The translations under genes were made by a program, and so were the position numbers. From assembly GCA_013336525.1 (NCBI GenBank), contig JAAXTM010000003.1, positions 124,001 through 188,000 of the forward strand: 64,000 bases of DNA, given 5' to 3'. This DNA comes from Geobacteraceae bacterium (GTDB taxonomy: Bacteria; Desulfobacterota; Desulfuromonadia; Geobacterales; Pseudopelobacteraceae). Positions 2,395 through 63,621 of the stretch are shown piece after piece (the first letter of the stretch is position 1; every line of letters begins with the position of its first letter). Below the pieces are notes generated by a model. The model saw only the letters and a program-made list of their open reading frames with translations, did no database searches and had not been told where the DNA came from.

Positions 2395-2535
2395 CCGCAG
2401 ATACCGCAGATTAACGCAGATAAAACCAATCGTTATTTAAAAAACATGCGCTTCTTTTTGGTTAAACCGGTTAAACCAGTATTTGTTTCAAGCCTTTGAT
2501 CTTTCTGGATATATCTGCGTTAATCTGCGGATAAT
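2395..2535. repeat. Long imperfect hairpin repeat, arms built on CGCAGATTAACGCAGAT
   Basis: Left arm 2395-2425 and right arm 2512-2534 are inverted copies built from the iterated word CGCAGAT(TAA). The loop is AT-rich and carries AGCCTTTGAT (2491-2500) shortly before the right arm. A second element with nearly the same arms lies at 39949-40108. It fills most of the non-coding space 2373-2618 after the ABC operon and could act as a transcript-stabilising or terminating hairpin, although there is no terminal T-run. No gene was seen here. Confidence 0.8.
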
Positions 2536-2618
2536 TTTTTAAGTTCGAAACTAATACGGACTGTTTAACGGCAAAAACCATGAACCCGTATTGAAGTCAA
2601 TCTTGTCGTACGCAGACT

Positions 2619-3152
2619 TCATTTCCCTCCGATGGCATGAGTGCCACGTTTGATCCAATCGATAACCAGACCTATTGCATACAGTGCTGACATGGGCATA
2701 AGCCAGGCGACAAAGCATATCATCATGCCGAGGCTCCGTTTTGACGGTAAATCGGAGATTGCATCGTGGTAGGCCTGCTCAACTCTATCAAAGCCGGCAT
2801 TGCCCTCCGGCCCAATCCGGTACGCTGACCGGACTGATGCTATCCACTGGGTATATCCCTGGGAACGGGCAATTCCAAAGATCTTCCGTGGCGATTCACC
2901 GGCAAAAGCCAGCCCATCATACCGTCTGACCTCCTCAGTAACAGAAAATACCATCTTCCGCTCGATCCGCTCCAGATTGGGTACGAGCATGTAATAACTC
3001 ACTATCAGCAACAGAAGGTAAATTATTCCGGAAGTCAGCCAGAGGCGCTGCCATGGCCTGATCTGATGCCTGGGCAAATCTGGTACAGTCCAGGTGCCGG
3101 TGGAGGATTTTTCAAGGGTTACATCTATGGCGGTGTTTTTCTTTGGTGTCAT
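2619..3152 (-). CDS. Hypothetical membrane protein, two transmembrane segments
   Basis: The 177-residue product is not a family I recognise. One hydrophobic helix lies at about residues 39-57 (IIYLLLLIVSYYML) and another at about 142-165, with a mixed-charge stretch of about 85 residues between them. That suggests a periplasmic or cytoplasmic loop between two membrane anchors. The ATG at 3152 has only a weak ribosome-binding site. A small ORF ends 23 bases upstream on the same strand, so the two may be co-transcribed. The frame is clean and codon use resembles that of neighbouring genes, so I take it as a real gene of unknown function. Confidence 0.65.
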   Translation of the reverse strand: MTPKKNTAIDVTLEKSSTGTWTVPDLPRHQIRPWQRLWLTSGIIYLLLLIVSYYMLVPNLERIERKMVFSVTEEVRRYDGLAFAGESPRKIFGIARSQGYTQWIASVRSAYRIGPEGNAGFDRVEQAYHDAISDLPSKRSLGMMICFVAWLMPMSALYAIGLVIDWIKRGTHAIGGK

Positions 3153-3175
3153 GCGGGCATTATAGCATTGGGTAG

Positions 3176-3427
3176 TCAGGCATACACTGAAAAACTATCT
3201 CGTAATGCCTTGCTCTCGGCAGGTGTCACCGGTGCTGAAGGTTCTTTTTTTAATGACAAAGTAGAGATACGGTCGGTTGACAGTGTAACTACGTCATCCG
3301 GTAGGGATACTGTATTCTTACGCAGCGGAGTATTGACAGAGCCTGATGCCGTTTCACTGCTATCTGGTGTTCTATGCCGGGCAGGAATAACCTGATGTTG
3401 AATGCTGTTACCGTGGACAGGCTGCAT
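3176..3427 (-). CDS. Small hypothetical protein (83 aa)
   Basis: The ATG at 3427 is preceded by AGGAG at a nine-base spacing, a good ribosome-binding site that argues this short frame is used. The product is hydrophilic with no signal peptide or membrane segment. Its second half contains DDVVTLSTDR and a Pro-rich KKEPSAPVTPAE stretch ending in SFSVYA. I do not recognise a named family. The DxVTLS pattern resembles short unstructured proteins common in Desulfuromonadia, but I cannot verify that. It lies 23 bases upstream of the membrane protein gene on the same strand. Confidence 0.5.
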   Translation of the reverse strand: MQPVHGNSIQHQVIPARHRTPDSSETASGSVNTPLRKNTVSLPDDVVTLSTDRISTLSLKKEPSAPVTPAESKALRDSFSVYA

Positions 3428-3650
3428 AGATGTTTACTCCTAAACCTGGATAAGCCAAAGTTAGATTCGACATTGGCTTTGCATAAGAGGTGCCAGTTTG
3501 TTAAAGTGCAGCTGCTAAGGCATTTGATGCAGTTTTGCTGTTAACCTGTTTACGGCTGGATCAAGGCAATGTCGGGATTTTGGAGTGTTAAGGCAGGTGC
3601 ATGACAAATTTTTGACTTGAAAAAGTGAATCGCGGGAGATTAATAAACAC

Positions 3651-4199
3651 ATGGCATTACCATCCACCATATACCGGGTCAATATTCAATTGTCTGATGT
3701 TGATCGTGGCGTTTACGAGTCATTGCAGACAACTGTTGCCCGTCATCCCTCTGAAACCGAAGAGCGTCTTGTTGCCAGACTGCTGGCTTATGCAATCTTT
3801 TTTGAACCGGAGCTCGCCTTCACCAAGGGTGTCAGTGCCGGCGATGAGCCTGATCTCTGGTTGAAAGGACCCGATGACAGGGTGCTTTTATGGGTGGAGG
3901 TCGGACTGCCGGAGCCGGAACGCCTTGTCAAGGCTGGCAGGCATGCGGAAAGAGTGGCAGTTATCGCCTGTGGCAGGGCGCTGCCTAAATGGGAACAACA
4001 GCACCTCCAAAAGATAGAGAGCGTGCCCAATTTGACGGTAGTATGTTTTGATCAGCTCTTTGTTAACGGTCTGGTATCAAAGCTGGACCGCTCAATAAAC
4101 TGGTCGGTTACCATCACAGACGGTAACCTGTATATAAATGTCGGCAACGAGACGTTCGAAACGGTTCTTCAGGAGCGGGTCGGAAAAAGATTAAAATAA
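3651..4199 (+). CDS. yaeQ: YaeQ family protein
   Basis: The 182-residue protein matches YaeQ along its whole length. It opens with the conserved ALPSTIYRVNIQLSDVDRG beginning and carries the WVEVGLPEPERLVKA core, which holds the acidic and Lys residues of the PD-(D/E)XK nuclease-like fold. The biochemical role is not established: YaeQ was linked genetically to RfaH suppression in E. coli and structurally to the nuclease superfamily. The start ATG follows a GGGAG about 11 bases upstream. The 3' end overlaps the convergent porin-like gene by nine bases. It appears monocistronic. Confidence 0.9.
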   Translation: MALPSTIYRVNIQLSDVDRGVYESLQTTVARHPSETEERLVARLLAYAIFFEPELAFTKGVSAGDEPDLWLKGPDDRVLLWVEVGLPEPERLVKAGRHAERVAVIACGRALPKWEQQHLQKIESVPNLTVVCFDQLFVNGLVSKLDRSINWSVTITDGNLYINVGNETFETVLQERVGKRLK

Positions 4200-5024
4200 A
4201 TAACTGATAGACAGTCCGAACATCGCCTGATTTTTGCTGCCCCGGATTTGGACCAATGGCGAATCTGCCACCGTGGAGGCCAAACGATCAAATCCGGCAA
4301 TCATAGAAATTGAAATGGAATCAGTCATCTGTGTCATGGCAAATCCGTTGATGCCGTAGGCGGTGACCCCGGCATCTGCATGGTACCGGGCCAAGCCGCT
4401 ACGCGCCGACTGCTCGGCACTAACGCCCCAATAGGCGTTTACATAAGTTTGGTCACCAAACTTGATATGAGGACCGAAGGAGTACACCAGTCGGCGACCC
4501 GAAAGTACCAACATCCCTCCGTAGTTGACTTTGCCCTCGGCGACCAGTCCGTTATGGCCGGAAAGACCCTTGTGTAGCCGCATACTGAGTTTGTAGGGCT
4601 TTATGTCATATTCTGCAAAACCACCAAGAGAAACTGTTCCCGGAACATCACCCATCCCCCGCAGAGAATCGTCTCTGCTGCCGGCAATACGGAAAACAGA
4701 GCCACCATCTTTTTCAGAACGGCTGAATGTATATGTTATGACCGGACCAACACGCCAACCATCCTGATTTAATACCGCATAGCCTACTCCATCCCTGGCA
4801 TTGGCAAAAAACAGATCTTTGTATGCAACCCTGATATCCGGAACAGCCAATAGATTGTACCTTTTCGACCCGGTAAATGCCGGGGCAATAATCAGCGCAC
4901 TGCCGACCGATGTCTTCCAACCACTGTGTGTAGATATTTTTTCAGGCTCTGCCGAAAGTGCGCTGGCTGTCGGTACAATTACCGCCATAACAAGATGCAG
5001 TATGAAGCATCGGAATCCACGCAT
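4191..5024 (-). CDS. MipA/OmpV family outer-membrane protein
   Basis: The 277-residue precursor has an N-terminal signal peptide (about residues 1-25, cleavage near ALSAEPEK). Alternating hydrophobic strands follow, ending in the aromatic C-terminal residue (LSISYLF) typical of outer-membrane beta barrels. The AIIAPAFTGSKRYNLLAVPDIRV-like opening and the FFANARDGVGY segment match MipA/OmpV. In this family MipA scaffolds murein synthesis enzymes in E. coli, while other members are stress or adhesion porins, so the role here is open. Start ATG has GGAGG eight bases upstream. The gene is convergent with yaeQ. Confidence 0.85.
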   Translation of the reverse strand: MRGFRCFILHLVMAVIVPTASALSAEPEKISTHSGWKTSVGSALIIAPAFTGSKRYNLLAVPDIRVAYKDLFFANARDGVGYAVLNQDGWRVGPVITYTFSRSEKDGGSVFRIAGSRDDSLRGMGDVPGTVSLGGFAEYDIKPYKLSMRLHKGLSGHNGLVAEGKVNYGGMLVLSGRRLVYSFGPHIKFGDQTYVNAYWGVSAEQSARSGLARYHADAGVTAYGINGFAMTQMTDSISISMIAGFDRLASTVADSPLVQIRGSKNQAMFGLSISYLF

Positions 5025-5205
5025 TTATTAAGCCTCCAGAACAGCATACTCATTTAAAGCCGGTACATGCCGTTTCATTGCTATCATTATTGCTGGATAA
5101 TATCAAATTATGGTATAAAAGTACTGTATGTATAACGTTTCTTTGAAATAATTATCCGTAATATAGATCTCAGCTCAAATCTCTGACAGCAGAGGAGGAT
5201 ACAAC

Positions 5206-5673
5206 ATGTTCACTCGATTTCTTGCGCTGGTTACACTGCTAACGCTGGCCTGTTCAACTGCACTTTACGCTGCACAAAAACCGGATGACCGTGAGGCGCT
5301 GGCCGGACTGAAGAGCGCCAAGGTTATCTTCGATGTTCGGGTACCTGATGTTGAAAAGCTTGTATTCAATCTCAAGCTATTCAGCGAGACCTTTGAAGGA
5401 ATGGTTTCTCAGGGTGTCAAACCGGAGATGGTGGTCGTATTCCGTGGCCCTGGGGTCAGGTTGCTTACTGCCGCCGCACTCGACGAGGAGACGCGAGAAC
5501 TGTTCAGGGCTTTGATAAAAAAAGGGGTGCGCTTTGAGGCGTGTGCAGTGGCCATGCGAGTCTTCAAGGCGGACACGGGCGGGCTTATCCCTGAGGTAAA
5601 ACTGGTTGCCAATGTGTTCAATTCGCTGATCGGCTATCAGAACAAGGGCTATGCAATGATTGCTATCAATTAG
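5206..5673 (+). CDS. DsrE-like exported protein
   Basis: The 155-residue product begins with a clear Sec signal peptide (cleavage probably after ALYAAQ). It continues with a DsrE/DsrF-like alpha-beta domain: a KVIFDVRV strand, an EMVVVFRGPGV strand, an RALIKKGVRFEACAVAM segment holding the single conserved Cys, and a C-terminal NKGYAMIAIN. In cytoplasmic DsrE proteins the equivalent Cys carries sulfur; exported members are common but uncharacterised. The ATG is preceded by GAGGAGGA. The pirin gene starts 19 bases downstream, so the two are probably one transcript. The 180-base upstream region is AT-rich with no promoter I would call confidently. Confidence 0.8.
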   Translation: MFTRFLALVTLLTLACSTALYAAQKPDDREALAGLKSAKVIFDVRVPDVEKLVFNLKLFSETFEGMVSQGVKPEMVVVFRGPGVRLLTAAALDEETRELFRALIKKGVRFEACAVAMRVFKADTGGLIPEVKLVANVFNSLIGYQNKGYAMIAIN

Positions 5674-5692
5674 TTGATAGAGGGGGCTATCC

Positions 5693-6595
5693 ATGACCAC
5701 ACGCCGCATTGCAAAAATATTCAAGAGCCGCCCAACCGTTGAAGGTGCCGGTGTTCACTTGAAGCGGGCATTCGGTTATTCCCAAGTACCTCAATTCGAC
5801 CCGTTCCTGATGCTGGATGATTTCCATACCTCCAACCCGGAAGAATACCTGGCCGGTTTCCCCTGGCACCCCCATCGCGGTATCGAGACCATTACCTACG
5901 TGCTGGAGGGGTTGGTGGAACATGGTGACAGTATGGGTAACAAGGGGACCATCGGCGCCGGAGATGTGCAGTGGATGACCGCCGGCAGTGGCATCATTCA
6001 TCAGGAGATGCCCCAATTGAGCCCCACCGGCACAATGTGGGGTTTTCAGTTCTGGGCCAATCTGCCGGCCGCACAGAAGATGATGGCGCCTCGCTATCGT
6101 GATGTCAAGGCGGCCGATATCCCTGAGGTCACGCTTGAGAACGGTGTAGCGATCAAGGTCATTGCAGGTGAGGTCGCGGATGTAAAAGGTCCGGTGGGGG
6201 ATATCGTGATTGAGCCGGAAATGCTCGATATCTGCGTTCCGGCCGGGACCGTATTTACTCATCCGCTATCAATCGGGCATACCGCTTTTGCCTATATACT
6301 CTCTGGCGATGGGTATTTCGATGATCAACGTGATGCCTATGCTTATGAGATGGTCGGTCACGGCTGGTCGGATACAGAGCGTCGCTGCGTCTGCGGCGTT
6401 GAAACCGTGGTGCTGTTTGAACATGCCGGTTCTGCAATTCAAGTTACGACATCTGACAAACCGGTCCGTTTTCTGTTTGTTTCGGGAAAGCCGCTTGGCG
6501 AGCCGGTGGCCTGGTACGGCCCGGTAGTGATGAATACCCAGGAGGAGCTGAAGGTTGCATTTGACGAATATCAGCACGGGACCTTCGTCAAGTAA
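5693..6595 (+). CDS. Pirin family protein
   Basis: The 300-residue protein is a bicupin of the pirin family. The N-terminal cupin has the FLMLDDFHTSNPEEYLAGFP start and the metal-ligand pattern HPHRGIETITYVLEG...EHGDS...MTAGSGIIHQEMP, in which the His and Glu ligands for one non-haem iron are present. The C-terminal cupin is less conserved, as usual. Pirins act as quercetinases or redox-sensing regulators, and the cellular role here is unknown. The ATG is preceded by AGAGGGGG. Its stop codon directly abuts a 120-base palindromic repeat. Confidence 0.92.
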   Translation: MTTRRIAKIFKSRPTVEGAGVHLKRAFGYSQVPQFDPFLMLDDFHTSNPEEYLAGFPWHPHRGIETITYVLEGLVEHGDSMGNKGTIGAGDVQWMTAGSGIIHQEMPQLSPTGTMWGFQFWANLPAAQKMMAPRYRDVKAADIPEVTLENGVAIKVIAGEVADVKGPVGDIVIEPEMLDICVPAGTVFTHPLSIGHTAFAYILSGDGYFDDQRDAYAYEMVGHGWSDTERRCVCGVETVVLFEHAGSAIQVTTSDKPVRFLFVSGKPLGEPVAWYGPVVMNTQEELKVAFDEYQHGTFVK

Positions 6596-6717
6596 TTCCA
6601 GTTTCAAATCAAAGCGCTATCATCGTTGGCTCGTCTTCGACACCTCAACGTACTGGTCAGTACGCCTCGGCGCCTCAATCCTTGCCGCCTTGATTTCATC
6701 TTTGATTTGAAATTGGT
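6595..6717. repeat. 120-bp palindromic element, copy 1
   Basis: This element starts at the pirin stop codon. Its ends are inverted (TTCCAGTTTCAAATCAAAG against CTTTGATTTGAAATTGG), and an inner stem pairs GTACTG with CAGTAC around 6650-6663. A second copy with the same order of motifs (AAATCAAGGCGCTATC, TTGGCTC.TCTTCG, CGCCTCA.TCCT.GCCG.CTTGAT) lies at 24105-24228 and also begins at a stop codon. It probably folds into a long hairpin in the 3' end of the transcript. Confidence 0.75.
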
Positions 6718-6740
6718 ATAACAGCCGATTGGCAGTCTGT

Positions 6741-7673: not shown

Positions 7674-7674
7674 A

Positions 7675-11030: not shown

Positions 11031-11056
11031 TGTATGTATCCTTTAGGAATAACGTC

Positions 11057-11072: not shown

Positions 11073-11090
11073 AAAGGATACACCGCGAGA

Positions 11091-14634: not shown

Positions 14635-16314
14635 ATGGCTCGAATAACCCTTGACCCGGTGACACGTATCGAAGGTCACCTGAGAATTGATGTGGAAGTA
14701 AACGGCGGGGCTGTAACCAATGCCTGGTCCTCTGCCCAGATGTGGCGCGGTATTGAAACAATTCTACAGGGGCGTCCACCTGAAGATGCCTGGATCTATG
14801 CCCAGCGCTTTTGCGGCGTCTGCACGACGGTGCATGCTATATCGTCGATCCGCTCGGTAGAGCATGCCCTTGGTGTAGAAGTGCCTTTGAACGCCCAGTA
14901 CATCCGCAATATGATCATGGCCCAGCACTCGGTACAGGATCATATCGTCCATTTCTATCACCTGTCGGCTCTGGACTGGGTTGATGTGGTTTCGGCCCTC
15001 AAGGCAGATCCGAAGAAAACAGCCCAGCTTGCCCAGAGCATTTCTGACTGGTCCGGCAATAGTGAGACGGAGTTTCGGGCGGTGCAGTCCAAGCTGAAGT
15101 CGTTTGTGGAAACCGGTCGCCTCGGCATCTTTTCCTCCGGTTACTGGGGACACCCGGCCATGAAACTGCCGCCTGAAGCCAACCTGATGGCGGTGGCACA
15201 TTATCTGAAAGCTCTGGATTATCAGCGCCGGGCAGCCCAGGTCGGTGCCATTCTTGGTGGAAAAAACCCGCACATCCAGAATCTCTGCGTGGGCGGTGTC
15301 GCTACTGCCATCAACATGGAAAACCTGGCAACCATCAACATGGAAAAGATCGCCGCCCTCCGTACGCTCATGGAAGAGACGCGTGATTTTGTCCAGAAAG
15401 TGTACTATCCGGATATGCTGGCGATCGCCTCGGCTTATAAAGAGTGGTTCAAATACGGCAAGGGTGTCATCAATTATCTGGCCGTGCCGGAAATGCCGGA
15501 AGATACCAAAAACACCAAATTTGCCCTGCCGGGAGCTGTCATCAACAATGGTGACATCAAGGGAGCCCGCATCATCACCAACCATCAGGACGAGTGGCTG
15601 ATCAACAGCATCACGGAAAACGTGGCTCATGCCTGGTACGAGGGAAGCGGCAGTCGACACCCCTGGGAAGGTGAAACCAAGCCGCACTACACCGATTTTG
15701 AGGATAATGGAAAATATACCTGGTGCAAGGCTCCGCGTCTCGACGGTAAAGCGGTGCAGGTCGGCCCTCCGGCACAACTCTTCGCAGCCTATGCCGGCGG
15801 CAACCAGAAGGTTAAAAAACTTGTGGACGATTCCTGCCGGAAAATCGGCGTTGGTGTCGGAGATCTGCATTCCACGATGGGACGTCTTGGTGCCCGTGCT
15901 ATCCGCGCCCACCTGATGGCGGACTATTCAATTGAGTATCTGGACAAACTGGTGGAAAATATTGCCAAGGGTGATAAAGCCTATGCCAATCACACTGAGA
16001 TTCCCAAGGGAGAGTATCGCGGCGTCGGCTTTCATGAAGCACCGCGCGGCACACTTTCGCACTGGATCGTGATCAAGAACAAAAAAATCAAGAACTACCA
16101 GGCGGTTGTACCTTCTACCTGGAACGCTTCGCCGCGTGACGAAAAAGGTGTCATGGGGCCATACGAGGCATCGCTGGTAGGCAACCCGGTTGCGGACAGC
16201 GAAAAACCGCTGGAAGTATTGCGTACGATCCATTCTTTCGACCCCTGTATCGCCTGTGCGGTGCATACAATTGATCCGGAAGGGAAAGAAATTACCAAGG
16301 TCAAGGTAATGTAA
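14635..16314 (+). CDS. hybL: [NiFe] hydrogenase large subunit, Hyb type
   Basis: The 559-residue catalytic subunit binds the Ni-Fe centre. The N-terminal ligand pair is C60/C63 in RFCGVCTTVH and the C-terminal pair is C538/C541 in DPCIACAVH. The 15 residues after H544 form the extension removed by the maturation protease after nickel insertion. The opening RITLDPVTRIEGHLRID is the L1 signature of group 1 enzymes. A GGAGG site precedes the ATG. A repeat element of about 180 bases separates it from the protease gene. Confidence 0.96.
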   Translation: MARITLDPVTRIEGHLRIDVEVNGGAVTNAWSSAQMWRGIETILQGRPPEDAWIYAQRFCGVCTTVHAISSIRSVEHALGVEVPLNAQYIRNMIMAQHSVQDHIVHFYHLSALDWVDVVSALKADPKKTAQLAQSISDWSGNSETEFRAVQSKLKSFVETGRLGIFSSGYWGHPAMKLPPEANLMAVAHYLKALDYQRRAAQVGAILGGKNPHIQNLCVGGVATAINMENLATINMEKIAALRTLMEETRDFVQKVYYPDMLAIASAYKEWFKYGKGVINYLAVPEMPEDTKNTKFALPGAVINNGDIKGARIITNHQDEWLINSITENVAHAWYEGSGSRHPWEGETKPHYTDFEDNGKYTWCKAPRLDGKAVQVGPPAQLFAAYAGGNQKVKKLVDDSCRKIGVGVGDLHSTMGRLGARAIRAHLMADYSIEYLDKLVENIAKGDKAYANHTEIPKGEYRGVGFHEAPRGTLSHWIVIKNKKIKNYQAVVPSTWNASPRDEKGVMGPYEASLVGNPVADSEKPLEVLRTIHSFDPCIACAVHTIDPEGKEITKVKVM

Positions 16315-16330
16315 GGTCTTTAAATATCTC

Positions 16331-16510
16331 ACCGCAGCCAAAAGTAGGCGCTTCTAAGCGAGGACGCAGAGTAACGCAGAGGAAGGCAAAAACAAAGAAA
16401 CGGAAAAATAGAAGCCTTTGATTCACCAGGAAAATTTTGTTTTTATGAATCTGATTTTCCACCTCAAAGATTTTGATGTTCCTCTGCGCTCCTCCGCGTC
16501 CTCTGCGGTG
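16331..16510. repeat. Long imperfect hairpin repeat inside the hyb operon
   Basis: The outer arms are ACCGCAG...CGAGGACGCAGAG (16331-16382) and its inverse CCTCTGCG...CCTCTGCGGT (16481-16509), built from an iterated GACGCAGAG word. The left arm is interrupted by a 30-base stretch (16335-16364) that recurs in inverse orientation at 40061-40090. The loop carries AAGCCTTTGATT (16412-16422). It sits between the hydrogenase large subunit and its protease and ends 27 bases before the protease start, so it could tune relative expression. Confidence 0.8.
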
Positions 16511-22896: not shown

Positions 22897-24104
22897 TTGA
22901 AACATGCATCCATCCATATCTGACCGGCGATGTTGCCGGCATTGGCGGGACCATAAAAGACTCTCCTGAGGATTTTCACGTTGAAGAGATTCCATCCTAT
23001 CTTCCCTGTGGTTCCGGCGAACACTGCTATTTGACAATTGAAAAGAGGGGCATCACTACTTTGGAGGCGATTAGCCGTATCGCTAAAAATCTGAAAGTAT
23101 CTGAGCGGGAAATCGGCTATGCCGGTATGAAGGACGCAGTTGGTGTGACCCGGCAGACTATTTCTATTCAGCGGTTGGCTCCGGATAAGGCTCTCGCCCT
23201 GGAACTGGATGACATCCGTGTTGTTTCGGCGCAGCGTCACTCAAATAAGCTTAAGGTGGGACATCTCAAAGGGAATCGCTTTCGTGTTGTCATCAGGGGT
23301 GTTTCCGGTGACGCCGCAGACCTGGTGCCGGCAGTTATGGAGGTGCTGGGGAAACGTGGCATCCCGAACTATTTCGGCTATCAGCGCTATGGTGCACAGG
23401 GTAATTCGCATCTGATCGGTGCTGCTATGCTCCGGCGGGATTGGCATGAGGCTGTAGATCGGCTGATAGGAGAAGCGGATGCTGTGCGGGATGAAGAATG
23501 GTCTGCCGCAATTATTGCCTATAAACAGGGCGATCCTGGCGAAGCGTTGCGCATCTTTCCGCGTCACTGCCGCAGTGAGCGTGATGTGCTGCAGCGTCTG
23601 GTTGGCCGTCCTGGAGAATATGAGAAAGCATTGTCCGCCGTTCACCCCAGACTTAAAAAAATATACCTTTCGGCTGCACAATCTTTTCTGTTCGACCAAG
23701 TTGTGGCAAGGCGGATTGATGCTATCGATAAACTTATGACGGGCGACCTGGCCTGTAAACATGCAAATGGCGCCTGTTTTCTTGTTGAAGATGCAGCGGC
23801 TGAGCAGGGGAGGGCAGATGCGTTTGAAATATCAGCAAGCGGTCCGATGTTTGGCTGCAAAATGAAGCGTCCCGAAGGTGCAGCATGGGATCTGGAATAT
23901 GAAATTCTTGAACGGACCGGACTTGATCTGACTCTGTTTGATATGCCGGGCGGTCTGCGGATGGAAGGTGAACGGAGGCCGCTCAGAGTTCCTGTCAGTG
24001 ATCTCTCCTGGAGCTTTTCCGAGGATGCGTTGACGGTGGAGTTTGCGCTGCCGAAGGGGTCGTATGCAACATCGCTGCTTCGGGAAATTACCAAGACGTT
24101 CTGA
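22893..24104 (+). CDS. truD: tRNA pseudouridine(13) synthase
   Basis: The 403-residue enzyme converts U13 in tRNA to pseudouridine. The catalytic Asp is D81 in GYAGMKDAVGVTRQ. The TruD signature (RGIPNYFGYQRYG) and the TRUD insertion domain are seen before the C-terminal catalytic half (LPKGSYATSLLREITK). The ATG overlaps the trmL stop. A 120-base palindromic element starts immediately after its stop codon. Confidence 0.95.
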   Translation: MIETCIHPYLTGDVAGIGGTIKDSPEDFHVEEIPSYLPCGSGEHCYLTIEKRGITTLEAISRIAKNLKVSEREIGYAGMKDAVGVTRQTISIQRLAPDKALALELDDIRVVSAQRHSNKLKVGHLKGNRFRVVIRGVSGDAADLVPAVMEVLGKRGIPNYFGYQRYGAQGNSHLIGAAMLRRDWHEAVDRLIGEADAVRDEEWSAAIIAYKQGDPGEALRIFPRHCRSERDVLQRLVGRPGEYEKALSAVHPRLKKIYLSAAQSFLFDQVVARRIDAIDKLMTGDLACKHANGACFLVEDAAAEQGRADAFEISASGPMFGCKMKRPEGAAWDLEYEILERTGLDLTLFDMPGGLRMEGERRPLRVPVSDLSWSFSEDALTVEFALPKGSYATSLLREITKTF

Positions 24105-24228
24105 TTCCAATTTTAAATCAAGGCGCTATCTTAGTTGGCTCATCTTCGGCTCCCCAACATACGGTTTGTATGCTTCCGTCGCCTCAGTCCTCGCCGTCTT
24201 GATATCACTCTTGATTTAGAAATGGAAT
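24105..24228. repeat. 120-bp palindromic element, copy 2
   Basis: The first base follows the truD stop. The ends GATTCCAATTTTAAATCAAG and CTTGATTTAGAAATGGAAT are inverted, and an inner ATAC/GTAT stem lies around 24159-24171. The motif order is the same as in the copy at 6595-6717. It lies upstream of a canonical terminator, so it is not itself required to end transcription. Confidence 0.75.
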
Positions 24229-28049: not shown

Positions 28050-28116
28050 GAGGGTCAAGGGTCAAGGGGCAAGGTTTAAACCTTGTTTTTTCCTTGACTC
28101 TTGCCCCTTGACCCTG
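28050..28116. repeat. Hairpin repeat, arms AGGGTCAAGGGTCAAGGGGCAAGG
   Basis: Left arm 28051-28074 and right arm 28093-28115 are inverted copies of iterated GGGTCAA. The loop is short (GTTTAAACC plus a T-run). It lies between ribE and ribBA within the operon. The same arm word recurs at 42481, 51865 and, as a single arm, near 40168. Confidence 0.8.
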
Positions 28117-39848: not shown

Positions 39849-39920
39849 TTTTGGCCTGTAACACATGTTACAATTACGTGTAACATGTAACACTGAAAAG
39901 CGTCACATGTTACACGTAAT
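39849..39920. repeat. Complex TGTAACA palindrome cluster
   Basis: ATTACGTGTAACATG (39873-39887) is perfectly inverted as CATGTTACACGTAAT (39906-39920) with an 18-base loop. Further copies of the word TGTAACA in both orientations lie at 39858-39892. It could be a hairpin of the same kind as its neighbour at 39949 or a multi-site operator. It follows the FapA gene by 16 bases. Confidence 0.7.
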
Positions 39921-39948: not shown

Positions 39949-40108
39949 CGTTATCCGCAGATTTCGCAGATTAACGCAGATAAAATAGATAGATATTTAA
40001 AAAAGCCCCCCCTTTTTGGTTACATCAATATTCGTTTCAAGTCTCTGATTTATCTGCGTATATAGCTTAGAATCGCCTACTTATGGCTGCGTTAATTTGC
40101 GGATAACG
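39949..40108. repeat. Long imperfect hairpin repeat with embedded insert
   Basis: Arms are CGTTATCCGCAG...CGCAGATTAACGCAGAT (39949-39982) and the inverse TATCTGCG...TTAATTTGCGGATAACG (40051-40108). The right arm is split by about 30 bases (40061-40090), the inverse of the stretch found in the left arm of the 16331 element. The remaining part of 39834-40267 holds a single GGGTCAA-type arm at 40168-40193 and the candidate promoter at 40202; no gene was seen. Confidence 0.8.
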
Positions 40109-40201
40109 GCATTTTTAAGGTTCATTTCAAACATATCACTCAATCATCACAACCCCGAAAAAATCGCCCATGTCCCTTGACCCTTGACCCTGAATTCCTC
40201 T

Positions 40202-40796: not shown

Positions 40797-42476
40797 ATGA
40801 ACTGGTATTATAACCTGAAAATCAGTGTGAAACTTTTGTCGGCGTTTATCATCGTGGCTGTTATTGCCGGCATTATCGGGGCGGTTGGTGTTTCCAAAAT
40901 TGGCAATATCAGTGAGGCCGATACAAAATTGTATGAAAAGATAACCATCCCATTGTCAGACATGGCAGACATCTCTATTGCCTTTCAGAGGCAAAGGGTA
41001 AATTCACGTGATCTTTTGGATGCGTCAAATCTGGAGGAAAAACAGAAATTTGCCGATCGTATCAAGGAACTGAGAGAGGGCAACAATAAAAGTGTTGCAG
41101 CCTTTGAAAAAACGATCCTCACCGATGAGGGGCGCAAGCTGTTTGAAGAGTACAAACAGTTCCGTGCGGCTTATGGGGCAGAGATTGATAAAGTGATTGC
41201 CCTGGCATTGCAAAACAATATTGCCGAAGCTCAAGCAATCCTCAAGGGCTCTGCCGGCAAGGCATCAAGGGATCTGCAGAATCAGATTGAAAAGCTTATG
41301 GAAGCCAAGTTGAAACAGGCCAAACTGACGTCTGAAGAAAATACGCAGACCGCCAAGTCCGCCACAAGGCTTATGATCGGTTTTGCAATTGGTGGTGTGA
41401 TAATTGCCATAATATTCGGAATATTCATTGCCAACATTATCAGTAATCCACTGCGCAAGGGTGTGCTTTTTGCCCAGGCCGTTGCTGCCGGTGACCTGAC
41501 CCAGAAGATTGATCTGGATCAGAAGGATGAAATCGGGCAGTTGGCTCAGGCCCTCAATGAAATGGTGACCAAGCTCGGAAGTATCGTCGGTGAAGTAACC
41601 GCTGCCGCCGACAACGTCGCCTCCGGCAGCCAGGAGCTATCCGCCACTGCCCAACAGATGTCGCAGGGCGCCACCGAGCAGGCTGCCAGCGCCGAAGAAA
41701 TTTCTTCCAGCATGGAAGAAATGGCTTCCAGTATCCGTCAGAATACCGACAACGCCATGCAGACCGAGAAGATCTCTATGAAGAGTTCCACGGATGCTAA
41801 AGAGGGCGGTAAAGCCGTTATCGAAACGGTTGCCGCCATGAAAGAAATCGCCACCAAGATATCGATCATTGAAGAGATCGCCCGTCAGACCAACCTGTTG
41901 GCGCTGAATGCCGCCATTGAAGCTGCCCGCGCCGGAGAACATGGCAAAGGCTTTGCTGTTGTTGCTTCCGAGGTTCGCAAGTTGGCCGAACGGAGTCAGT
42001 CTGCTGCCGGTGAAATATCCGGACTCTCAACCCGTAGTGTGGCCGTTGCCGAGCAGGCTGGCGAAATGCTGACCAAGATGGTGCCGGATATCCAGAAAAC
42101 CGCCGAATTAGTCCAAGAAATTACCGCCTCCAGTAAAGAGCAGGATACCGGTGCCGAACAGATCAACAAGGCCATTCAGCAGCTTGATCAGGTCATCCAG
42201 CAGAACGCCAGCGCTTCCGAAGAGATGGCTTCCACTTCAGAAGAACTTTCCAGTCAGGCTGCACAGCTACAGGATTCAATCAGCTTCTTCAATATCGGCA
42301 ATCAGACACGGAAATCATCCGCAGTTGCTGCCCACAAGCCTGCTAAAAAAATGCAGATCGCTCATGCTAAAAGCAGTGCAGCTCAACCGCAGGCTAAGCG
42401 AGCGTCAGGCGGTATAAACCTGCAGTTAGGTCAGGCTGGTCCGGACCATCTGGATGATGAATTCGAGAAATTTTAA
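40797..42476 (+). CDS. Methyl-accepting chemotaxis protein (four-helix-bundle sensor)
   Basis: The 559-residue receptor has TM1 at about 11-31, an all-helical periplasmic domain of the 4HB_MCP type, TM2 at about 192-215, HAMP, and a signalling domain with intact tip ([18 protein letters not shown] from about residue 366). It ends in a flexible Lys/Ala-rich linker and [10 protein letters not shown], which fits the CheR-tethering pattern x-[aromatic]-x-x-[aromatic]. The signalling half is almost identical in protein sequence to that of the receptor at 50162. Confidence 0.95.
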
Positions 42477-42480: not shown

Positions 42481-42591
42481 CAGGGTAAGGGTCATAAATG
42501 CAGGGTCAAGGGTCAAGGAGAAGCAAGTGTCAAGAAAAGACAGGGCAAAGACTTTGCATCTACTTGACCCTTGACCCTACGCCCTTGCCCC
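42481..42591. repeat. Hairpin repeat, GGGTCAA-type arms
   Basis: CAGGGTCAAGGGTCAAGGAG (42501-42520) inverts as CTTGACCCTTGACCCT (42563-42578), with outer GGGTAAGGG/CCCTTGCCC pairing. The loop contains CAAAGACTTTGCAT (42546-42559). It starts five bases after the receptor stop. Confidence 0.8.
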
Positions 42592-42606
42592 TAAAAAAAG
42601 AGCGCC

Positions 42607-43446: not shown

Positions 43447-43584
43447 TAATAACACGGAGTACACGGAGAAAGTTCAAGACAAAAAAGGTTTGACCCCTGA
43501 TATGTTAATATGTTGCTCAGTGTTTAAGTTCTTTTTAAGCGTTTGATCTTGATTTCCTCCGTTTCTCCGTTTCTCCGTGTTATT
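43447..43584. repeat. Hairpin repeat, arms AACACGGAGTACACGGAGAAA
   Basis: Left arm 43447-43471 and right arm 43552-43583 are inverted copies of an iterated ACACGGAG word. The loop contains GCGTTTGATCTT (43540-43550). It fills the gap between the cytochrome gene and the next signalling gene. Confidence 0.8.
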
Positions 43585-47857: not shown

Positions 47858-47970
47858 TCACGCAAAGCCGCAAAGCCGCAAAAAAAGTCAAAAAAAAGCT
47901 TTATGTATTTAACCCCAAAGACTTTAAGTTTTTATCTTGGTTTACTTTGCGCCTTTGCGGCTTTGCGTGA
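47858..47970. repeat. Hairpin repeat, arms TCACGCAAAGCCGCAAAG
   Basis: Left arm 47858-47882 and right arm 47946-47970 are inverted copies of an iterated GCAAAGCC word. The loop carries CCCCAAAGACTTTAAG (47914-47929). It lies between cheY and cheA. Confidence 0.8.
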
Positions 47971-50161: not shown

Positions 50162-51847
50162 ATGTTCGCTAACATGAAGATCGGTAAACGGATGACGCTT
50201 GGTTTTGGTTTGCTGCTGGTTATTATGGCTGTGCTTGTATGGGAAGGCGTGTCGGGTATGGCAGGGATTCAAAAGAATCTTGATCGCATTGTTAAGGTTA
50301 ATAATGTTCGTGTTGAGTTAGCCAATGATAGCAATGACCAAATTGCGACGGTATCTGTTAATCTGAGAAACATTATTATGGAATCTGATGACTCCAAGCA
50401 TCCGCCACTTGAAAAAATGGTTGCTGATGCCCGCGCCAAATATGACGATAACTTTAAAAAAATACAGGAAATGACCAGTAAGGATGACAGTAAATCTCAT
50501 GAACTGTTTGTCAAGATAAAGGAAGCTCAGGATCATGCACGCATGCTCAATAAAAAAGTAGATGAGCTTGATGCTGCCAAAAAAGATGCTGAGGCAGTTT
50601 CACTTCTTAACAGAGAGGCTGGACCCGCTGTCGAAAAATGGAAAACACTGGTAGAAAATTTAATTGACCACAATATGGAACGCAACAAAATGCGCTATGA
50701 AGAGGCTACCAAAGAATTCACAAGTGCACGGAATACCATGTTTGGACTCGGTGCCGCAGCCATTCTGATAGCAATATTTACCGCCCTATTCCTGACTCGT
50801 GGCATCGTGCGTCCGATTAATGAGGCAGTTAGCGTTGCCAACTCCCTTGCTAAGGGCGACCTGACCATAACAGTCGAGTCAAAGTCCAAAGATGAAACCG
50901 GTCTTATGATGGCTGCTATTGCAACCATGGTAGACAGGTTGAAGCACGTTGTTGGTGATGTCATGTCGGCAGCCGATAATGTTTCCTCTGGCAGTCAGCA
51001 ACTCTCCGCTACTGCCCAGCAGATGTCGCAGGGGGCTACCGAGCAGGCCGCCAGCGCCGAAGAGATCTCCTCCAGCATGGAAGAGATGGCTTCCAGCATC
51101 CGCCAAAACACTGATAATGCCATGCAGACGGAGAAAATATCTGTAAAGAGCTCTGTCGATGCCAAAGAGGGGGGCAAGGCGGTTATCGAAACGGTTGCTG
51201 CGATGAAGGAAATTGCCACCAAAATATCGATCATCGAAGAAATTTCCCGTCAGACGAACCTGCTCGCGCTGAACGCCGCTATCGAAGCAGCCCGAGCCGG
51301 GGAGCATGGCAAAGGTTTTGCCGTCGTCGCTTCTGAGGTTCGCAAGCTTGCAGAACGGAGCCAATCGGCTGCCGGTGAAATTTCCAGCCTGTCCAGCCGA
51401 AGCGTTGCCATCGCCGAGCAGGCTGGCGAGATGCTGACCAAGATGGTGCCGGATATCCAGCGCACCGCCGAACTGGTGCAGGAAATCACCGCTTCCAGCA
51501 AGGAACAGGATACCGGCGCCGAACAGATCAACAAGGCGATCCAGCAACTCGATCAGGTTATCCAGCAGAATGCTTCAGCTTCTGAAGAGATGGCATCCAC
51601 CTCGGAAGAGCTTTCCAGCCAGGCCGAACAGTTGAGCGATGCGGTTGCCTTCTTCAAGATTGACGGTGGCGGCAGTTCCCGCGCCCCGCGTCAACAGGTT
51701 GCCAAGCAGGGCAAACACGTGCAGATCGCCCATGCCGGAGTAAAGGTAAAAACCGCATCTGCAAAGCGTACATCCGGCGGTGGTATTAATCTTGAATTGG
51801 GGCAAGCTGGTCCGGACCATCTCGATGATGAGTTTGAGAAATTCTAA
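50162..51847 (+). CDS. Methyl-accepting chemotaxis protein (paralogue of 40797)
   Basis: The 561-residue receptor has TM1 at about 12-31, a helical periplasmic domain unlike that of its paralogue in sequence, TM2 at about 195-215, HAMP and a signalling domain almost identical at protein level to that of the 40797 receptor. It also ends in [10 protein letters not shown], a probable CheR tether. ATG 50162 follows GAGGAGG; the frame's earlier ATG at 50123 lies inside cheA. The second cheW follows after a repeat element. Confidence 0.95.
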
Positions 51848-51864: not shown

Positions 51865-51955
51865 CAGGGTCATGGGGCAAGGGTCAAGGAAAGCCAAAGA
51901 CTTTGATTCTACTTGACCCATGACCCTTGACCCTGTTTTTTATCCCTTGACCCTA
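51865..51955. repeat. Hairpin repeat, GGGTCAA-type arms, second copy in the che cluster
   Basis: CAGGGTCATGGGGCAAGGGT (51865-51884, continuing CAAGG) inverts as CTTGACCCATGACCCTTGAC (51912-51931, continuing CCTG), with an extra CCCTTGACCCT at 51944-51954. The loop carries AGCCAAAGACTTTGATTCT (51892-51910). It sits between receptor and cheW, mirroring the 42481 element, which follows the other receptor. Confidence 0.8.
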
Positions 51956-52445: not shown

Positions 52446-52446
52446 G

Positions 52447-54886: not shown

Positions 54887-54889
54887 AAA

Positions 54890-55004
54890 AAGTCCCCTCT
54901 CCATGAGGGAGAGGGCTAGGGTGAGGGGGGCAGAGTTGGATTATGCAGTACATTTCCCCCCTCATCCGGCCTTCAGCCACCTTCTCCCTTAGGGAGAAGG
55001 GACT
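54890..55004. repeat. Composite hairpin repeat, CCCTCTCC/GGGAGAGGG type
   Basis: The outer arms AGTCCCCT...GGGTGAGGGGGG (54891-54930) and CCCCCCTCATCC...AGGGGACT-like inverse (54955-55004) pair, and each arm also folds on itself (CTCTCCATGAGGGAGAG; TTCTCCCTTAGGGAGAA). Elements of this CCCTCTCC...CTAGGGTGAGGG kind are widespread REP-like sequences in proteobacteria. It lacks the AAGNCTTTGAT loop motif of the others in the window. Confidence 0.8.
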
Positions 55005-55064
55005 AGCGGAAGATCAGTATCTATTCAAGTTGTTTTTTTACTCTGCTTCACTCCGGAGGCACTA

Positions 55065-55964: not shown

Positions 55965-56021
55965 TTGGGAGCGCAATCCGACAAGGTGTTTTAACTATTC
56001 AGCACACCAAAAAAATAAATT

Positions 56022-56140
56022 TAACAGGGATGAAGGGGATAAAAGGGATACAGCAAAAACAAGATAAAATCTTCAAATTTTTGGTTTAAATCCTTACGAC
56101 TTAAAGGTCTGATGGTTTTATCCCCTTTATCCCTGTAAAA
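56022..56140. repeat. Hairpin repeat, arms ACAGGGATGAAGGGGATAAA
   Basis: Left arm 56022-56050 and right arm 56116-56138 are inverted copies of iterated GGGATAAA-like words. The loop has CTTAAAGGTCTGATGG (56100-56115). A further perfect ten-base inverted pair AACTATTCAG (55993-56002) and CTGAATAGTT (56171-56180) brackets the whole element. Confidence 0.8.
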
Positions 56141-56194
56141 AAGCCTTTAAGTTTAATTATTTTGATATTACTGAATAGTTACGAGGGGTCATGT

Positions 56195-57085: not shown

Positions 57086-57091
57086 AAAAAC

Positions 57092-57565: not shown

Positions 57566-57594
57566 GTACATATCTGGTCAGCAAAGGTCTATCA

Positions 57595-61104: not shown

Positions 61105-61121
61105 TGGTTGAAGGATGAACA

Positions 61122-62075
61122 ATGGCAAATAAAATCCAGGAATCACCAAAAACCGAAATAATACGCATTGTAGCCCTTTACTCTTTATTTGGCGTGCTTT
61201 GGATATATTTGTCAGACTCTTTTATAGGTTTTGCCATAAGTGACTCTGCCGTCATATCCCGTTTATCAATTTATAAAGGGATTTTGTTCATCGCCCTCAC
61301 TGCAGCACTCCTCTATTTTCTCATTGCCAGCTATGTCAAGAGAATCAGCTCTAATATACTTGAACTCAAACAGGCCCAAAAAAAACTTCAGGACAAGAAT
61401 AACGAACTTGAGAGCTTTACCTATACCGTTTCACACGACCTGAAAAGCCCGCTGATCACAATCCAGAGCTATGCCGGTATGATTAAAAAGGATCTGCAAG
61501 CCGGCAATATTGCCAGGGCAGAGGGTGACCTCAGCAGAATTGAGGGTGCGGCGGCCAAAATGACATGTCTGATTAATGATTTGTTGCAGCTATCCCGCGT
61601 TGGCAGAATGATGAATGAGCCTTCTGATATTAACATGAATCGCTTGGTACATGATTGTCTGGCCCAGTTGACCGGTTCGCTTGAACTAAAGAAGGTTTCC
61701 ATAGTACTGCAACCTGATCTTCCTGCTGTCCGTGGCGATGCGCAGCGTTTGTCGGCTGTGATGCAAAACCTGATTGAGAATGCCATCAAATACATGGGAG
61801 AGCAGGTTACGCCACGTATTGAAATCGGGGCACGGGTGGACGGCAAAGAAACTGTCTTCTACGTCAGTGATAATGGCGCCGGTATTGATCCGCTTCATCA
61901 TGAAAGGGTATTCGGTCTCTTCAGTAAGCTTGATGCCGGCAGCGCTGGGACCGGTATCGGTCTGGCTCTCGTCAAGCGGATTATCGATATCCACAGGGGC
62001 AGGATCTGGGTGGAGTCTGAAGGGGTAGGCAAGGGAAGCAGATTCTGTTTTACGTTGTCAGGGGGAGAGGCATGA
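61122..62075 (+). CDS. Membrane histidine kinase, short two-helix input
   Basis: The 317-residue kinase has two N-terminal membrane helices (about 13-36 and 48-69) with almost no loop domain. A coiled coil, HisKA with H105 in YTVSHDLKSPLITI and HATPase (NLIENAIKYMGE, DNGAGI, GTGIGLALV) follow. This HisKA type is the phytochrome-like HDLKxPL form. It overlaps the next kinase gene by four bases and shares a nearly parallel catalytic half with it, which points to tandem duplication with exchange of the input. Confidence 0.9.
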   Translation: MANKIQESPKTEIIRIVALYSLFGVLWIYLSDSFIGFAISDSAVISRLSIYKGILFIALTAALLYFLIASYVKRISSNILELKQAQKKLQDKNNELESFTYTVSHDLKSPLITIQSYAGMIKKDLQAGNIARAEGDLSRIEGAAAKMTCLINDLLQLSRVGRMMNEPSDINMNRLVHDCLAQLTGSLELKKVSIVLQPDLPAVRGDAQRLSAVMQNLIENAIKYMGEQVTPRIEIGARVDGKETVFYVSDNGAGIDPLHHERVFGLFSKLDAGSAGTGIGLALVKRIIDIHRGRIWVESEGVGKGSRFCFTLSGGEA

Positions 62076-63577
62076 ACCTTGAAAATTTAAAAATATTTGC
62101 TGTAAAAGCCAGACGCGCCGTCAATATGGCAGCTTTGCCGGTTGTGGCCATGGTTGTTGTGGCCGTTACTCTTAATTATGCTATATCCGCATTTTTCTTA
62201 AGCGATGCCGAAGAAAAAATCAAAAACATCCTGCTTTCTCACCGTGGACTCCACCAATATATCCAGAAGGTTATGCACCCCGCTTTTTACAAGGCAAGGG
62301 AGCAGGGTGAAATTTCTCAAGACTTTTATGCCCCTGAAATATTTTCATCTTCGTTTGTAGTTCGAGTTGATCACGGTTTTTATAATGAGGAGCTGAAAAA
62401 AGCGGGACTTCCGGAAATCTACTATAAATTGGCCTCAAATAATCCGCGCAATCCGGTTAACAAGGCCGACGAATTTGAATCTTCACTGATCAAAATGTTC
62501 AATGAAAACAGTGAAATAAGTGAATTCAAAAAAGTAGTAAACATTGACGGTAAAAAATATCTCTATTTCGCAATCCCGTTTCTCGAAACCAGCAATGCCT
62601 GTATCAGGTGTCATGGGAAAAGGGAGGATGCGCCGCAAGGGCTTCAGGCTCTGTATCCAGGGCAAGGAGGTTTTAACGAGAAGGCTGGTGTTTACAGGGC
62701 GATTGAATCGATCAGGGTGCCTGTAAGTGATGAAATTTCAACAGCCTTTATTCTTACTTGCTCGTTATCTGTTGGAATTATTGCAATGTTCATGCTGTTC
62801 TTTTTTAACAGACGCCTGAAAAGAACGGTGGATAAAAAGACCTATTCACTTGAAGCAGAGGTTGTGGAGCGTAAAAAAAAGGAAGATGATCTGGAGAAAA
62901 AAAATGCTGAGCTGGAACGGTTTGCCTACACGGTCTCACACGATCTGAAAAGTCCGATCATTACTATAAAGGGATTTACCGGTGCTCTGGAAAAAGATCT
63001 TTTGAAAGGGAATTATGAGCGGATGGCTGGTGATCTGAAACGTGTCAGCGATGCTGCCGACAGGATGAACGATCTGTTGTGTGACCTGCTGGAAATCTCG
63101 ACTGTTGGCCGTGTTGTCAATACATCGGAAGCGGTGGATATGAATCTGCTGGTAGAAGATGTGCTGGCACAACTTGAAGGGCCTTTGAGAAACAGTGATA
63201 TCAAAGTAACCGTACAATCTGATCTGCCGCCTTTATTCTGCGACCGGCAGCGGATGTGCGAGGTGGTTCAAAATCTGGTTGAGAACGCCATTAATTACAT
63301 GGGTGATCAGGTCGACCCTCATATACTGTTTGGTGTGCGGGAAGAATCTGGTGTAAAAGTATATTTCGTTCAGGATAACGGTATCGGTATTGATGAAAAA
63401 TATCACGAAAATGTTTTTGGCCTGTTCAACAAACTGGACGCCAAAAGCAGCGGCACCGGCATCGGCCTGGCACTGGTAAAACGGATCATCGAGGTTCATG
63501 GCGGGCGGGTCTGGGTGGAGTCGGATGGGGTCGGTAAGGGGAGTCGTTTTTGTTTTACGGTCGGGAGAAACTTTTAA
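62072..63577 (+). CDS. Haem-c sensor histidine kinase (DUF3365-type periplasmic domain)
   Basis: The 501-residue kinase has TM1 at about 19-39 and a periplasmic domain with PRNPVNKADEFE, YLYFAIPFLETSNACIRCHG (haem motif C177-I-R-C180-H181) and APQGLQALYPGQGGFNEKAG, all typical of the DUF3365/Tll0287-like domain. TM2 is at about 224-246, then HisKA with H290 and HATPase (GTGIGLALVKRI). A covalent haem suggests sensing of redox state or gas ligands in the periplasm. The receiver encoded next (63643) is its probable partner. Confidence 0.9.
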   Translation: MNLENLKIFAVKARRAVNMAALPVVAMVVVAVTLNYAISAFFLSDAEEKIKNILLSHRGLHQYIQKVMHPAFYKAREQGEISQDFYAPEIFSSSFVVRVDHGFYNEELKKAGLPEIYYKLASNNPRNPVNKADEFESSLIKMFNENSEISEFKKVVNIDGKKYLYFAIPFLETSNACIRCHGKREDAPQGLQALYPGQGGFNEKAGVYRAIESIRVPVSDEISTAFILTCSLSVGIIAMFMLFFFNRRLKRTVDKKTYSLEAEVVERKKKEDDLEKKNAELERFAYTVSHDLKSPIITIKGFTGALEKDLLKGNYERMAGDLKRVSDAADRMNDLLCDLLEISTVGRVVNTSEAVDMNLLVEDVLAQLEGPLRNSDIKVTVQSDLPPLFCDRQRMCEVVQNLVENAINYMGDQVDPHILFGVREESGVKVYFVQDNGIGIDEKYHENVFGLFNKLDAKSSGTGIGLALVKRIIEVHGGRVWVESDGVGKGSRFCFTVGRNF

Positions 63578-63579
63578 CT

Positions 63580-63621
63580 AGGGGGCAAGCGGCAAGGTTG
63601 AAACCATGACCCTTGGCCCTA
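63580..63621. repeat. Short degenerate GGGCAAGG hairpin
   Basis: AGGGGGCAAGCGGCAAGGTT (63580-63599) partly inverts as CCATGACCCTTGGCCCT (63605-63621). It looks like a shortened copy of the GGGTCAA-type element without loop core, and lies in the gap before the receiver gene. Confidence 0.55.

Follow-up and report, generated by a model that had tools for sequence, protein, structure and literature searches.

Hairpins with iterated, copy-specific arms in a Geobacteraceae genome: probable gene-less members of a class of small mobile elements

What produces a set of intergenic hairpins whose arms repeat a short word, when the word itself changes from one hairpin to the next? The question is raised by a 64,000-nucleotide stretch of DNA, here called the window, from a Geobacteraceae bacterium (genome G000; 3.50 Mb in 28 contigs), which occupies positions 124001 to 188000 of a contig of 369,552 bases (C24; GenBank JAAXTM010000003.1). 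A sequence-only reading of the window had listed nine such hairpins and two partial copies; all were located at or close to the positions it gave, and both the iteration of words within arms and the differences in word between elements are real. In C24, 25 inverted repeats scored at least 14, compared to 1, 1, and 0 in three shuffled versions, and a detector of iterated tracts returned 11 pairs in inverted and 2 in direct orientation, compared to 0 inverted pairs in one shuffle. A detector of whole-arm periodicity returned no hairpin periodic in both arms, and a local-repeat score was used in its place. All belong to a single class, in which the arms are iterated and specific to the copy. Our best explanation, to which we give a probability of about 0.6, is that they are gene-less members, resembling miniature inverted-repeat transposable elements (MITEs), of a class of small mobile elements that would act by the mechanism set out below; architecture, place, and word class are the grounds for this assignment. 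The class, apparently, is widespread and undescribed and comprises short inserts found mostly at gene ends.

Gene-bearing elements on the hairpin plan

A full element consists of a left arm of about three or more iterated 7- to 10-base words, one small open reading frame (ORF), and an inverted right arm. One branch carries GxxExxY, a predicted Cas4-like PD-(D/E)XK nuclease, between CRCNRMG words, and the other carries an S23/IVP-family four-helix-bundle protein between words mostly of period 7. The corresponding families, PF13366 and PF05635, were both tested.

G000 contains four PF13366 genes, all assigned by NCBIfam to TIGR04256 GxxExxY (PF13366 is PDDEXK_3), and the best named matches of the GxxExxY protein of this genome are Geobacteraceae and Geobacter records. 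One of the loci in G000 (L039) is bracketed by arms on the hairpin plan. We collected 113 GxxExxY loci, 33 from this genome and its relatives (the best match per genome in the relatives) and 80 named ones (the best 80 of 569), the latter from Bacteroidota, Planctomycetota, Verrucomicrobiota, Cyanobacteria, Chloroflexi, Acidobacteria, Alphaproteobacteria, and others. After 3 of the 113 were left out for short flanks or match lengths beyond limits, flanking inverted arms scoring at least 32 were present at 80 of 110 loci (22 of 33 from this genome and relatives; 58 of 77 named), compared to 4 of 755 shifted control placements at the same loci. A further 21 loci from the taxonomic class, again the best match per genome, gave arms in 18, compared to 2 of 79 controls. 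The commonest arm word is C-R-C-N-R-M-G, with a period of 8 or, in fewer cases, 9 or 10. Arms scoring at least 26 were present at 92 loci, and in these the words ran inward at 69 and outward at 9. An earlier motif-based word measurement left out 20 of the 113 loci (18 without the motif and 2 truncated) and 6 of 30 PF05635 loci. In two Bacteroidota lineages (L093 and L135), GxxExxY occupies the same junction, read from its flanks as nuoF/nuoG, with inward arms in the one and outward arms in the other.

For PF05635, arms on the same plan were predicted before the flanks were inspected, and the prediction named GGGTCAAG or GGGATAAA words as possibilities. From 30 loci in relatives, likewise the best match per genome, 9 were left out for short flanks or match lengths beyond limits; arms scoring at least 32 flanked 12 of the remaining 21, compared to 0 of 126 controls. 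By eye, the words are mostly of period 7 (e.g., GGTTCTA, GGTGACT, and GGGACTC), and the GGGTCAA hairpins of the window resemble this word class. An S23/IVP ORF within terminal inverted repeats is thus found in these gene-bearing relatives, while the window hairpins contain no ORF. PF05635 matched in 32 of 39 genomes searched and in 0 of 14 control genomes. Relative G029 has two PF05635 genes and a single PF13366 gene in the 400 kb examined, and each gene-sized inverted pair detected there belongs to one of these three; in a 400-kb stretch of G036, two gene-less hairpins were detected and its two GxxExxY genes were missed. Both stretches were picked with prior knowledge that they contain genes of one family or of both. 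On a Pseudanabaena plasmid (L352, 2489-2848), the cas6 and cas4 genes of a type I-D CRISPR system enclose a four-helix-bundle gene, which has numerous TTTTAGC-like units on its flanks.

Residues invariant among 38 GxxExxY sequences include D67, E77, and K79, in agreement with a PD-(D/E)XK pattern. The best PDB match to an AlphaFold2 model of the protein (mean pLDDT, 96) was SSO0001, a Cas4 nuclease (probability, 1.00; E, 3.5e-3; TM score, 0.56), followed by lambda-type exonucleases; the PDB fold search returned no structural relative at E ≤ 0.001, and a search by sequence returned no solved relative at E ≤ 1. On this model, GxxExxY is a predicted PD-(D/E)XK nuclease with a Cas4-like fold. In an excerpt of PMC8934634, a gene beside a reverse transcriptase is called cas4 by one tool and GxxExxY by another. 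A linked reverse transcriptase, which the sequence-only reading had considered, did not turn up: G000 had 0 PF00078 matches, while 3 of 14 control genomes had matches, and an origin linked to reverse transcription was rejected on this count. Rfam had no match in the window or in 20 element loci (16 PF05635 loci out of 30, with 4 of GxxExxY), so that neither a known RNA family nor an insertion into 23S rRNA was found there. An anti-phage system was also considered and rejected, PADLOC having no match for three proteins.

Insertion sites and gene 3' ends

With a single query protein for each family, GxxExxY was found on 8 of 72,556 plasmids and in 0 of 50,697 phages, and PF05635 was found on 29 plasmids and in no phage. 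The plasmids offer filled and empty versions of sites 1 to 5. A PF05635 element separates the two genes of site 1 in Trichormus and Scytonema; in Nostoc linckia and N. carneum 13 bases lie there instead, with flank identities between filled and empty sites of 98.8 and 97.9%; four more records, known from their listing, lack the same stretch at 98.2 to 98.3% identity. The filled Trichormus site exceeds the empty one by 428 nucleotides (nt), and both ends of the insert carry GTAAT, stop codon included, probably a 5-nt target duplication spanning the stop codon. Nostoc C052 has a decayed copy here and Brasilonema has a gene-less hairpin, so that the site exists in four states: empty, gene-bearing, decayed, and gene-less. 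At site 2, one of the two copies has TTCTA as a possible duplication, but its arm words look like the target. A target duplication of about 5 nt is suggested at these two plasmid sites, the other sites being undecided. Empty relatives also exist for sites 6 and 7 and, at 72.5% identity, for site 8, where GxxExxY lies between radA and the gene of a flavin adenine dinucleotide (FAD) protein. Nostocales arm words are mostly heptamers, and in Nostocales plasmids the same words are found in elements with a gene, in decayed ones, and in gene-less ones; the window copies share the word class only.

Turnover is also seen at chromosomal junctions. Of 20 stretches retrieved for the junction of a cytochrome P460 gene and a response-regulator kinase gene, 16 were compared at the junction itself. 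A CACGGAG element lies there in G000 (window 43448-43584, plus strand) and in G013, a CGCAAAG element in G009, a CGCAACG element in G050, and a CCCCTC-type inverted repeat in G006, G043, and G016; by eye, the junction is armless in G018, G019, G042, G046, G051, G048, G017, G020, G044, and G022. A further intergenic inverted-repeat type, CCCTCTCC/GGGGAGAGGG, occurs in the window at 54891-55003, in L227, L230, and L235, and also at the P460/kinase junction of relatives.

A different junction carries GxxExxY in two genomes (L054 and L047) and PF05635 in two others (L155 and L156). One junction with different cargo is what would be expected if the GxxExxY and four-helix-bundle genes were passengers of preexisting hairpin hot spots, the bare hairpins being moved by an unseen activity, and genomes that lack the gene and have many pattern matches point the same way. 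Each gene family keeps its own word class, however, and we regard this explanation as having only slight probability. The counts behind it come from a three-word class-1 pattern, which matched 4,592 times in 277 genomes of the taxonomic class, both arms and overlapping matches included, compared to 481 GxxExxY matches; a reversed-pattern control gave mostly 0 to 3 per strand and genome, with a maximum of 16. The GxxExxY gene is present in 200 of the 277 genomes. The median number of pattern matches was 7 in genomes with GxxExxY and 1 in those without it (P = 1.7e-8, with phylogeny ignored), and 44 of the 77 genomes without the gene have some matches.

The elements share a position relative to their neighbors. 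Of 63 armed GxxExxY loci, 51 have a same-strand gene upstream, 3 have an opposite-strand gene there, and 9 have an uncalled one, and in 35 of the 51 same-strand loci the left arm starts within 20 nt of the upstream stop codon. For PF05635, 16 loci could be called, and in 15 of them the gene upstream shares the strand; 12 of these 15 are within 20 nt of the stop when weak arms are included. By comparison, a random intergenic point in C24 lies within 20 nt past a plus-strand stop in 7.7% of cases. Of 19 hairpins of the CGCAGATTAA word type, 16 come after a gene whose strand matches that of their loop core, a count from which L015 was dropped and in which the spans of L003 and L019 are mis-delimited. 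The exceptions include two cyanobacterial plasmids in which the PF05635 gene is reversed, one of which (site 5) still adjoins a stop codon. The insertion target is the gene 3' end, often though not always the stop codon. Insertion at or near the stop codon would probably duplicate about five target bases, and the elements presumably ride host transcription.

The same position could be read differently, with the hairpins as host RNA devices at gene 3' ends, serving RNase III processing, transcript stability, or translational coupling; the ORFs would then be lodgers and the words would be constrained by pairing only. Such a role fits the location, which is at the 3' ends of genes and in most cases strand-matched to the gene upstream, and it fits the retention of arms where the neighboring intergenic DNA scarcely aligns. 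Furthermore, excerpts of two published accounts report that RNase III cuts the stems of rRNA intervening sequences (PMC4990558) and suggest that 7-bp repeat hairpins of cyanobacteria affect transcript stability (PMC2670836). This explanation does not account for the use of two word classes by two gene families, many orthologous junctions are empty, and we consider it unlikely, also in view of the word data that follow.

Concerted change of arm words and a proposed mechanism

An Fst-like measure over 48 elements and 291 words was 0.89, 0.74, and 0.74 at word positions 2, 5, and 6, compared to 0.29 and 0.18 at positions 4 and 8; only words of a fixed pattern were used, in which positions 1, 3, and 7 were unable to vary, and position 7 does differ between elements (CACGGAA and CGCGAAA). 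Because plain copying would make every word position uniform, yet positions 4 and 8 vary, uniformity at positions 2, 5, and 6 favors recognition over plain copying. Pairing alone, as in host RNA devices, would likewise leave unexplained why words match at positions 2, 5, and 6 but not at 4 and 8.

Orthologous loci display the change directly. In eight orthologous GxxExxY loci, words two and three read CAACNGAG in four and NCACNGAG in four, one right arm being decayed. At a cyanobacterial ortholog locus, the words are of CGCAGAG type in L094 and CGCAAAG in L115, and L084 retains one CGCAGAG word. In the largest ortholog group, the left and right arms of an element were 95% alike and the same arm across orthologs was 79% alike, with the excess in 20 of 21 pairs; within-element excess was also found in groups B (3/3), D (3/3), S (1/1), and 4HB (1/1) and was absent from groups C (0/1) and F2 (0/1). 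An element's own two arms are therefore closer than the ortholog's same arm in five of seven groups, in a comparison that left out L040 and L118 and in which arms were cut by left-right alignment, inflating left-right identity. The sequence-only reading had ascribed the arms to generation or replacement by copying. Arms do change in place, and sets of words change together at orthologous loci; pure copying is not the best account of them, since positions 4 and 8 are free and positions 2, 5, and 6 are near uniform.

On the GxxExxY protein tree, positions 2 and 5 changed 7 times each (shuffled means, 16.3 and 16.2) and position 6 changed 4 times (6.9). Such tracking argues against genes that are mere passengers of hairpin hot spots, though co-inheritance alone would suffice and fits the data equally well.

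For the mobile-element reading, we propose that the words may be binding sites of an element-specific factor, probably the encoded protein, which would probably act in trans on gene-less copies. Selection to match this factor, together with arm pairing or conversion, would keep the words of one copy alike. A bolder version is possible but rather doubtful: these would be selfish elements without a transposase, whose copy-specific word code at both ends would be read by their own small protein (GxxExxY or S23/IVP) and would drift with its reader to give lineage-private ends, with insertion aimed at stop codons and with rRNA intervening sequences and the 7-bp hairpins of cyanobacteria as special cases.

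Several observations weigh against the mobile-element reading and its mechanism. No transposition was observed and no transposase was identified; by its predicted nuclease fold, GxxExxY is a candidate mobilizing enzyme. Four-helix-bundle proteins are not known nucleases, and a single protein-driven mechanism for both branches is for that reason doubtful. Word position 4 partly tracks the protein tree (10 changes; shuffled mean, 16.2); of 17 held-out loci, 9 obeyed a rule linking protein columns to word position 5, which failed, and 13 obeyed the corresponding rule for position 2, possibly through clade structure only. GGGTCAA hairpins occur in G000, yet PF05635 has no match in that genome, and a gene-sized inverted pair in C24 (72004-72724) proved to be two hairpins, with neither gene matched there. 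Two elements on plasmids lie in the upstream gene or extend into it; because the site 7 element is about 27 nt inside the gene end and the left arm at site 4 lies within the reading frame, the target is the gene 3' end and not strictly the stop codon. Moreover, the stop-codon position may reflect survivorship. The comparison of gene and hairpin counts is uncorrected for phylogeny, 36 of the 200 genomes with GxxExxY have zero pattern matches, and G060 and G085 (completeness, 100) have 87 and 83 matches and no GxxExxY gene.

Hairpins of the window, their guests, and known systems

The window contains two hairpins of the CGCAGATTAA family. The one at 2380-2543 (plus strand) follows a plus-strand ORF ending at 2372, has its word arms from 2395 and to 2530, and carries the core AAGCCTTTGAT in its loop and the outer ends common to the family. 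The other (39949-40114, plus strand) holds an insert resembling a repetitive extragenic palindrome (REP) in its right arm (40064-40080, minus strand). A CGCAGAG-type hairpin (16330-16510, plus strand), after an ORF ending at 16314, has a similar REP-like insert (CCAAAA plus GTAGGCGCTTCTAAGCG) in its left arm, behind a CGCAG word (16338-16360, plus strand). GGGTCAA hairpins lie at 28051-28115, nearly loopless, of period 7, and similar in word class to the four-helix-bundle elements, and at 42482-42592 (plus strand), with GGCAAAGACTTTGCAT in the loop and directly past the stop of a methyl-accepting chemotaxis protein gene at 42476. A GGGTCA hairpin with core AAGACTTTGAT and one extra word at right occupies 51865-51954 (plus strand), 17 nt past a stop at 51847. 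The partial copy listed at 40168 is, by eye, a lone GGGTCAA-type arm (CCCTTGACCCTTGACCCT; 40174-40191) and does not stand as a hairpin. A CGCAAAGC hairpin lies at the junction of CheY-like and CheA-like genes (47858-47970, plus strand), and a degenerate short GGGCAAG hairpin lies 2 nt past a stop at 63577 (63580-63620). For the GGGATAAA-type hairpin of period 9 (56020-56140), a pattern search found no gene-bearing counterpart; sought as the words of a third cargo family, GGGATAAA/CAGGAT words gave 4 matches in 3 of 58 genomes and no pair. A strong palindrome of another kind (ATTACGTGTAACATGT...; 39873-39920), near chemotaxis genes, is possibly an operator.

A shared loop core near the right arm had been proposed. 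The core AAGNCTTTGAT occurs exactly 7 times in C24, 6 of them within hairpins of differing word types, and CTTTGAT occurs 9 times within hairpins compared to 0.63 expected by length, the hairpin intervals being delimited by hand. The concentration in hairpins of different word types is thus real, while the hairpins at 28050 and 63580 are nearly loopless and the core at 16331 lies away from the right arm. A different long inverted repeat, TCAAATCAAAG...CTTTGATTTGAAAT, occurs twice (6592-6722 and 24104-24228); its copies have similar GC-rich interiors and contain CTTTGAT in their ends too.

A 20-base CGCAGATTAA-type pattern matched 76 times in the genome with up to 3 mismatches, and its reversed control matched 0 times. 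Twenty copies could be aligned through outer ends, arms, and loop, with the fetched loci L007 and L027 left out, and they are dispersed copies with shared ends, as in a MITE. Because the copies have loop and outer ends in common, the alignment points to a single dispersed family whose copies descended from one another. The claim that such arms are not what a MITE or REP gives was therefore half right: the CGCAGATTAA copies are an ordinary dispersed family, and the gene-less hairpins of Nostocales plasmids behave like MITEs of gene-bearing elements.

The REP-like palindrome GTAGGCGCTTCTAAGCG, of the GTAG type, has 7 sites in C24 with up to 2 mismatches (94082, 106030, 140344, 164064, 226573, 364572, and 364605), all among hairpin word arms. 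CGCAG precedes it within 22 bases at 6 of the 7 sites, where chance would give about 0.02 per site, and at the seventh (94082) CGCAA and CGCAAAG words flank it by eye. The palindrome seems to be a secondary guest, apparently targeting CGCAG words, and the odd, lopsided arms at 16331 and 39949 are explained by its insertion there. The left arm of a cyanobacterial GxxExxY element (L084, 2380-2520) is likewise interrupted by a different palindrome, some 45 nt long.

These families bear on whether the hairpins could instead be independent REP or MITE families, moved by unrelated transposases such as the REP-associated tyrosine transposases (RAYTs) and made alike by convergence and arm slippage. 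The CGCAGATTAA type is a standard dispersed family, and G000 has five Y1/RAYT matches; a Y1/RAYT-like gene on contig C11 (5813-6133; L033) lies about 1.2 kb from the GxxExxY gene of L039 (4255-4605), which may be chance. A link to such an enzyme, as raised by the sequence-only reading, is possible, but the REP-like palindrome in C24 is a separate guest within arms at 7 of 7 sites. No word arrays were found at four of the five RAYT loci (L034 excluded) by a pattern blind to CGCAACG words, and by eye the window hairpins lack the GTAG-type head that marks a palindrome with a linked Y1 gene. In addition, slippage would equalize positions 4 and 8 too, and a common plan, a similar place, and one degenerate word extend across phyla. 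We judge independent families quite improbable and retain the reading of the hairpins as gene-less members of one class.

Among known systems, the intervening sequence (IVS) of 23S rRNA comes closest. In an excerpt of PMC4990558, it is selfish, with 28-bp terminal inverted repeats, an S23 ORF, excision by RNase III, and an unclear origin; like the elements described here, it is a small selfish insert with stem-forming terminal inverted repeats and an S23 four-helix-bundle ORF in its loop, and its published size of 428 nt equals that of the plasmid insert with its target duplication. The present elements differ in lying at 3' ends of protein genes, in including GxxExxY as another gene family, in having many gene-less copies, and in their iterated copy-specific words, the IVS being known here by this published description. 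Short tandemly repeated repetitive (STRR) sequences of heterocystous cyanobacteria, in an excerpt of PMC2670836, are hairpin-capable 7-bp tandem repeats of function not known, near a gene 3' end in the described case. Period-7 hairpins of the GGGTCAA type and of the plasmid elements may resemble them in plan; the present elements are not confined to cyanobacteria, and that excerpt does not describe STRRs as ends of gene-bearing mobile elements. With MITEs and with REPs or bacterial interspersed mosaic elements and their RAYTs, the hairpins share the form of gene-less, dispersed intergenic palindromes, many near stop codons, but no transposase was found here, the arms are iterated and copy-specific, and REP-like palindromes are separate guests. 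The Avd protein of diversity-generating retroelements presumably has a four-helix-bundle fold related to PF05635, in contrast to which this genome has no PF00078 reverse transcriptase match. The literature searched, at title level and with most subscription papers outside its scope, held no account of GxxExxY function or flanks, and iterated arms flanking GxxExxY appear undescribed.

If true, the reading would join the origin of the 23S rRNA IVS, the heptamer hairpins of cyanobacteria, and the function of GxxExxY, a gene common in the taxonomic class (200 of 277 genomes) yet mentioned by name in just two of 5.39 million papers searched. The filled and empty sites, the ortholog series, and the proposed word code make both the mechanism and its specificity directly testable.

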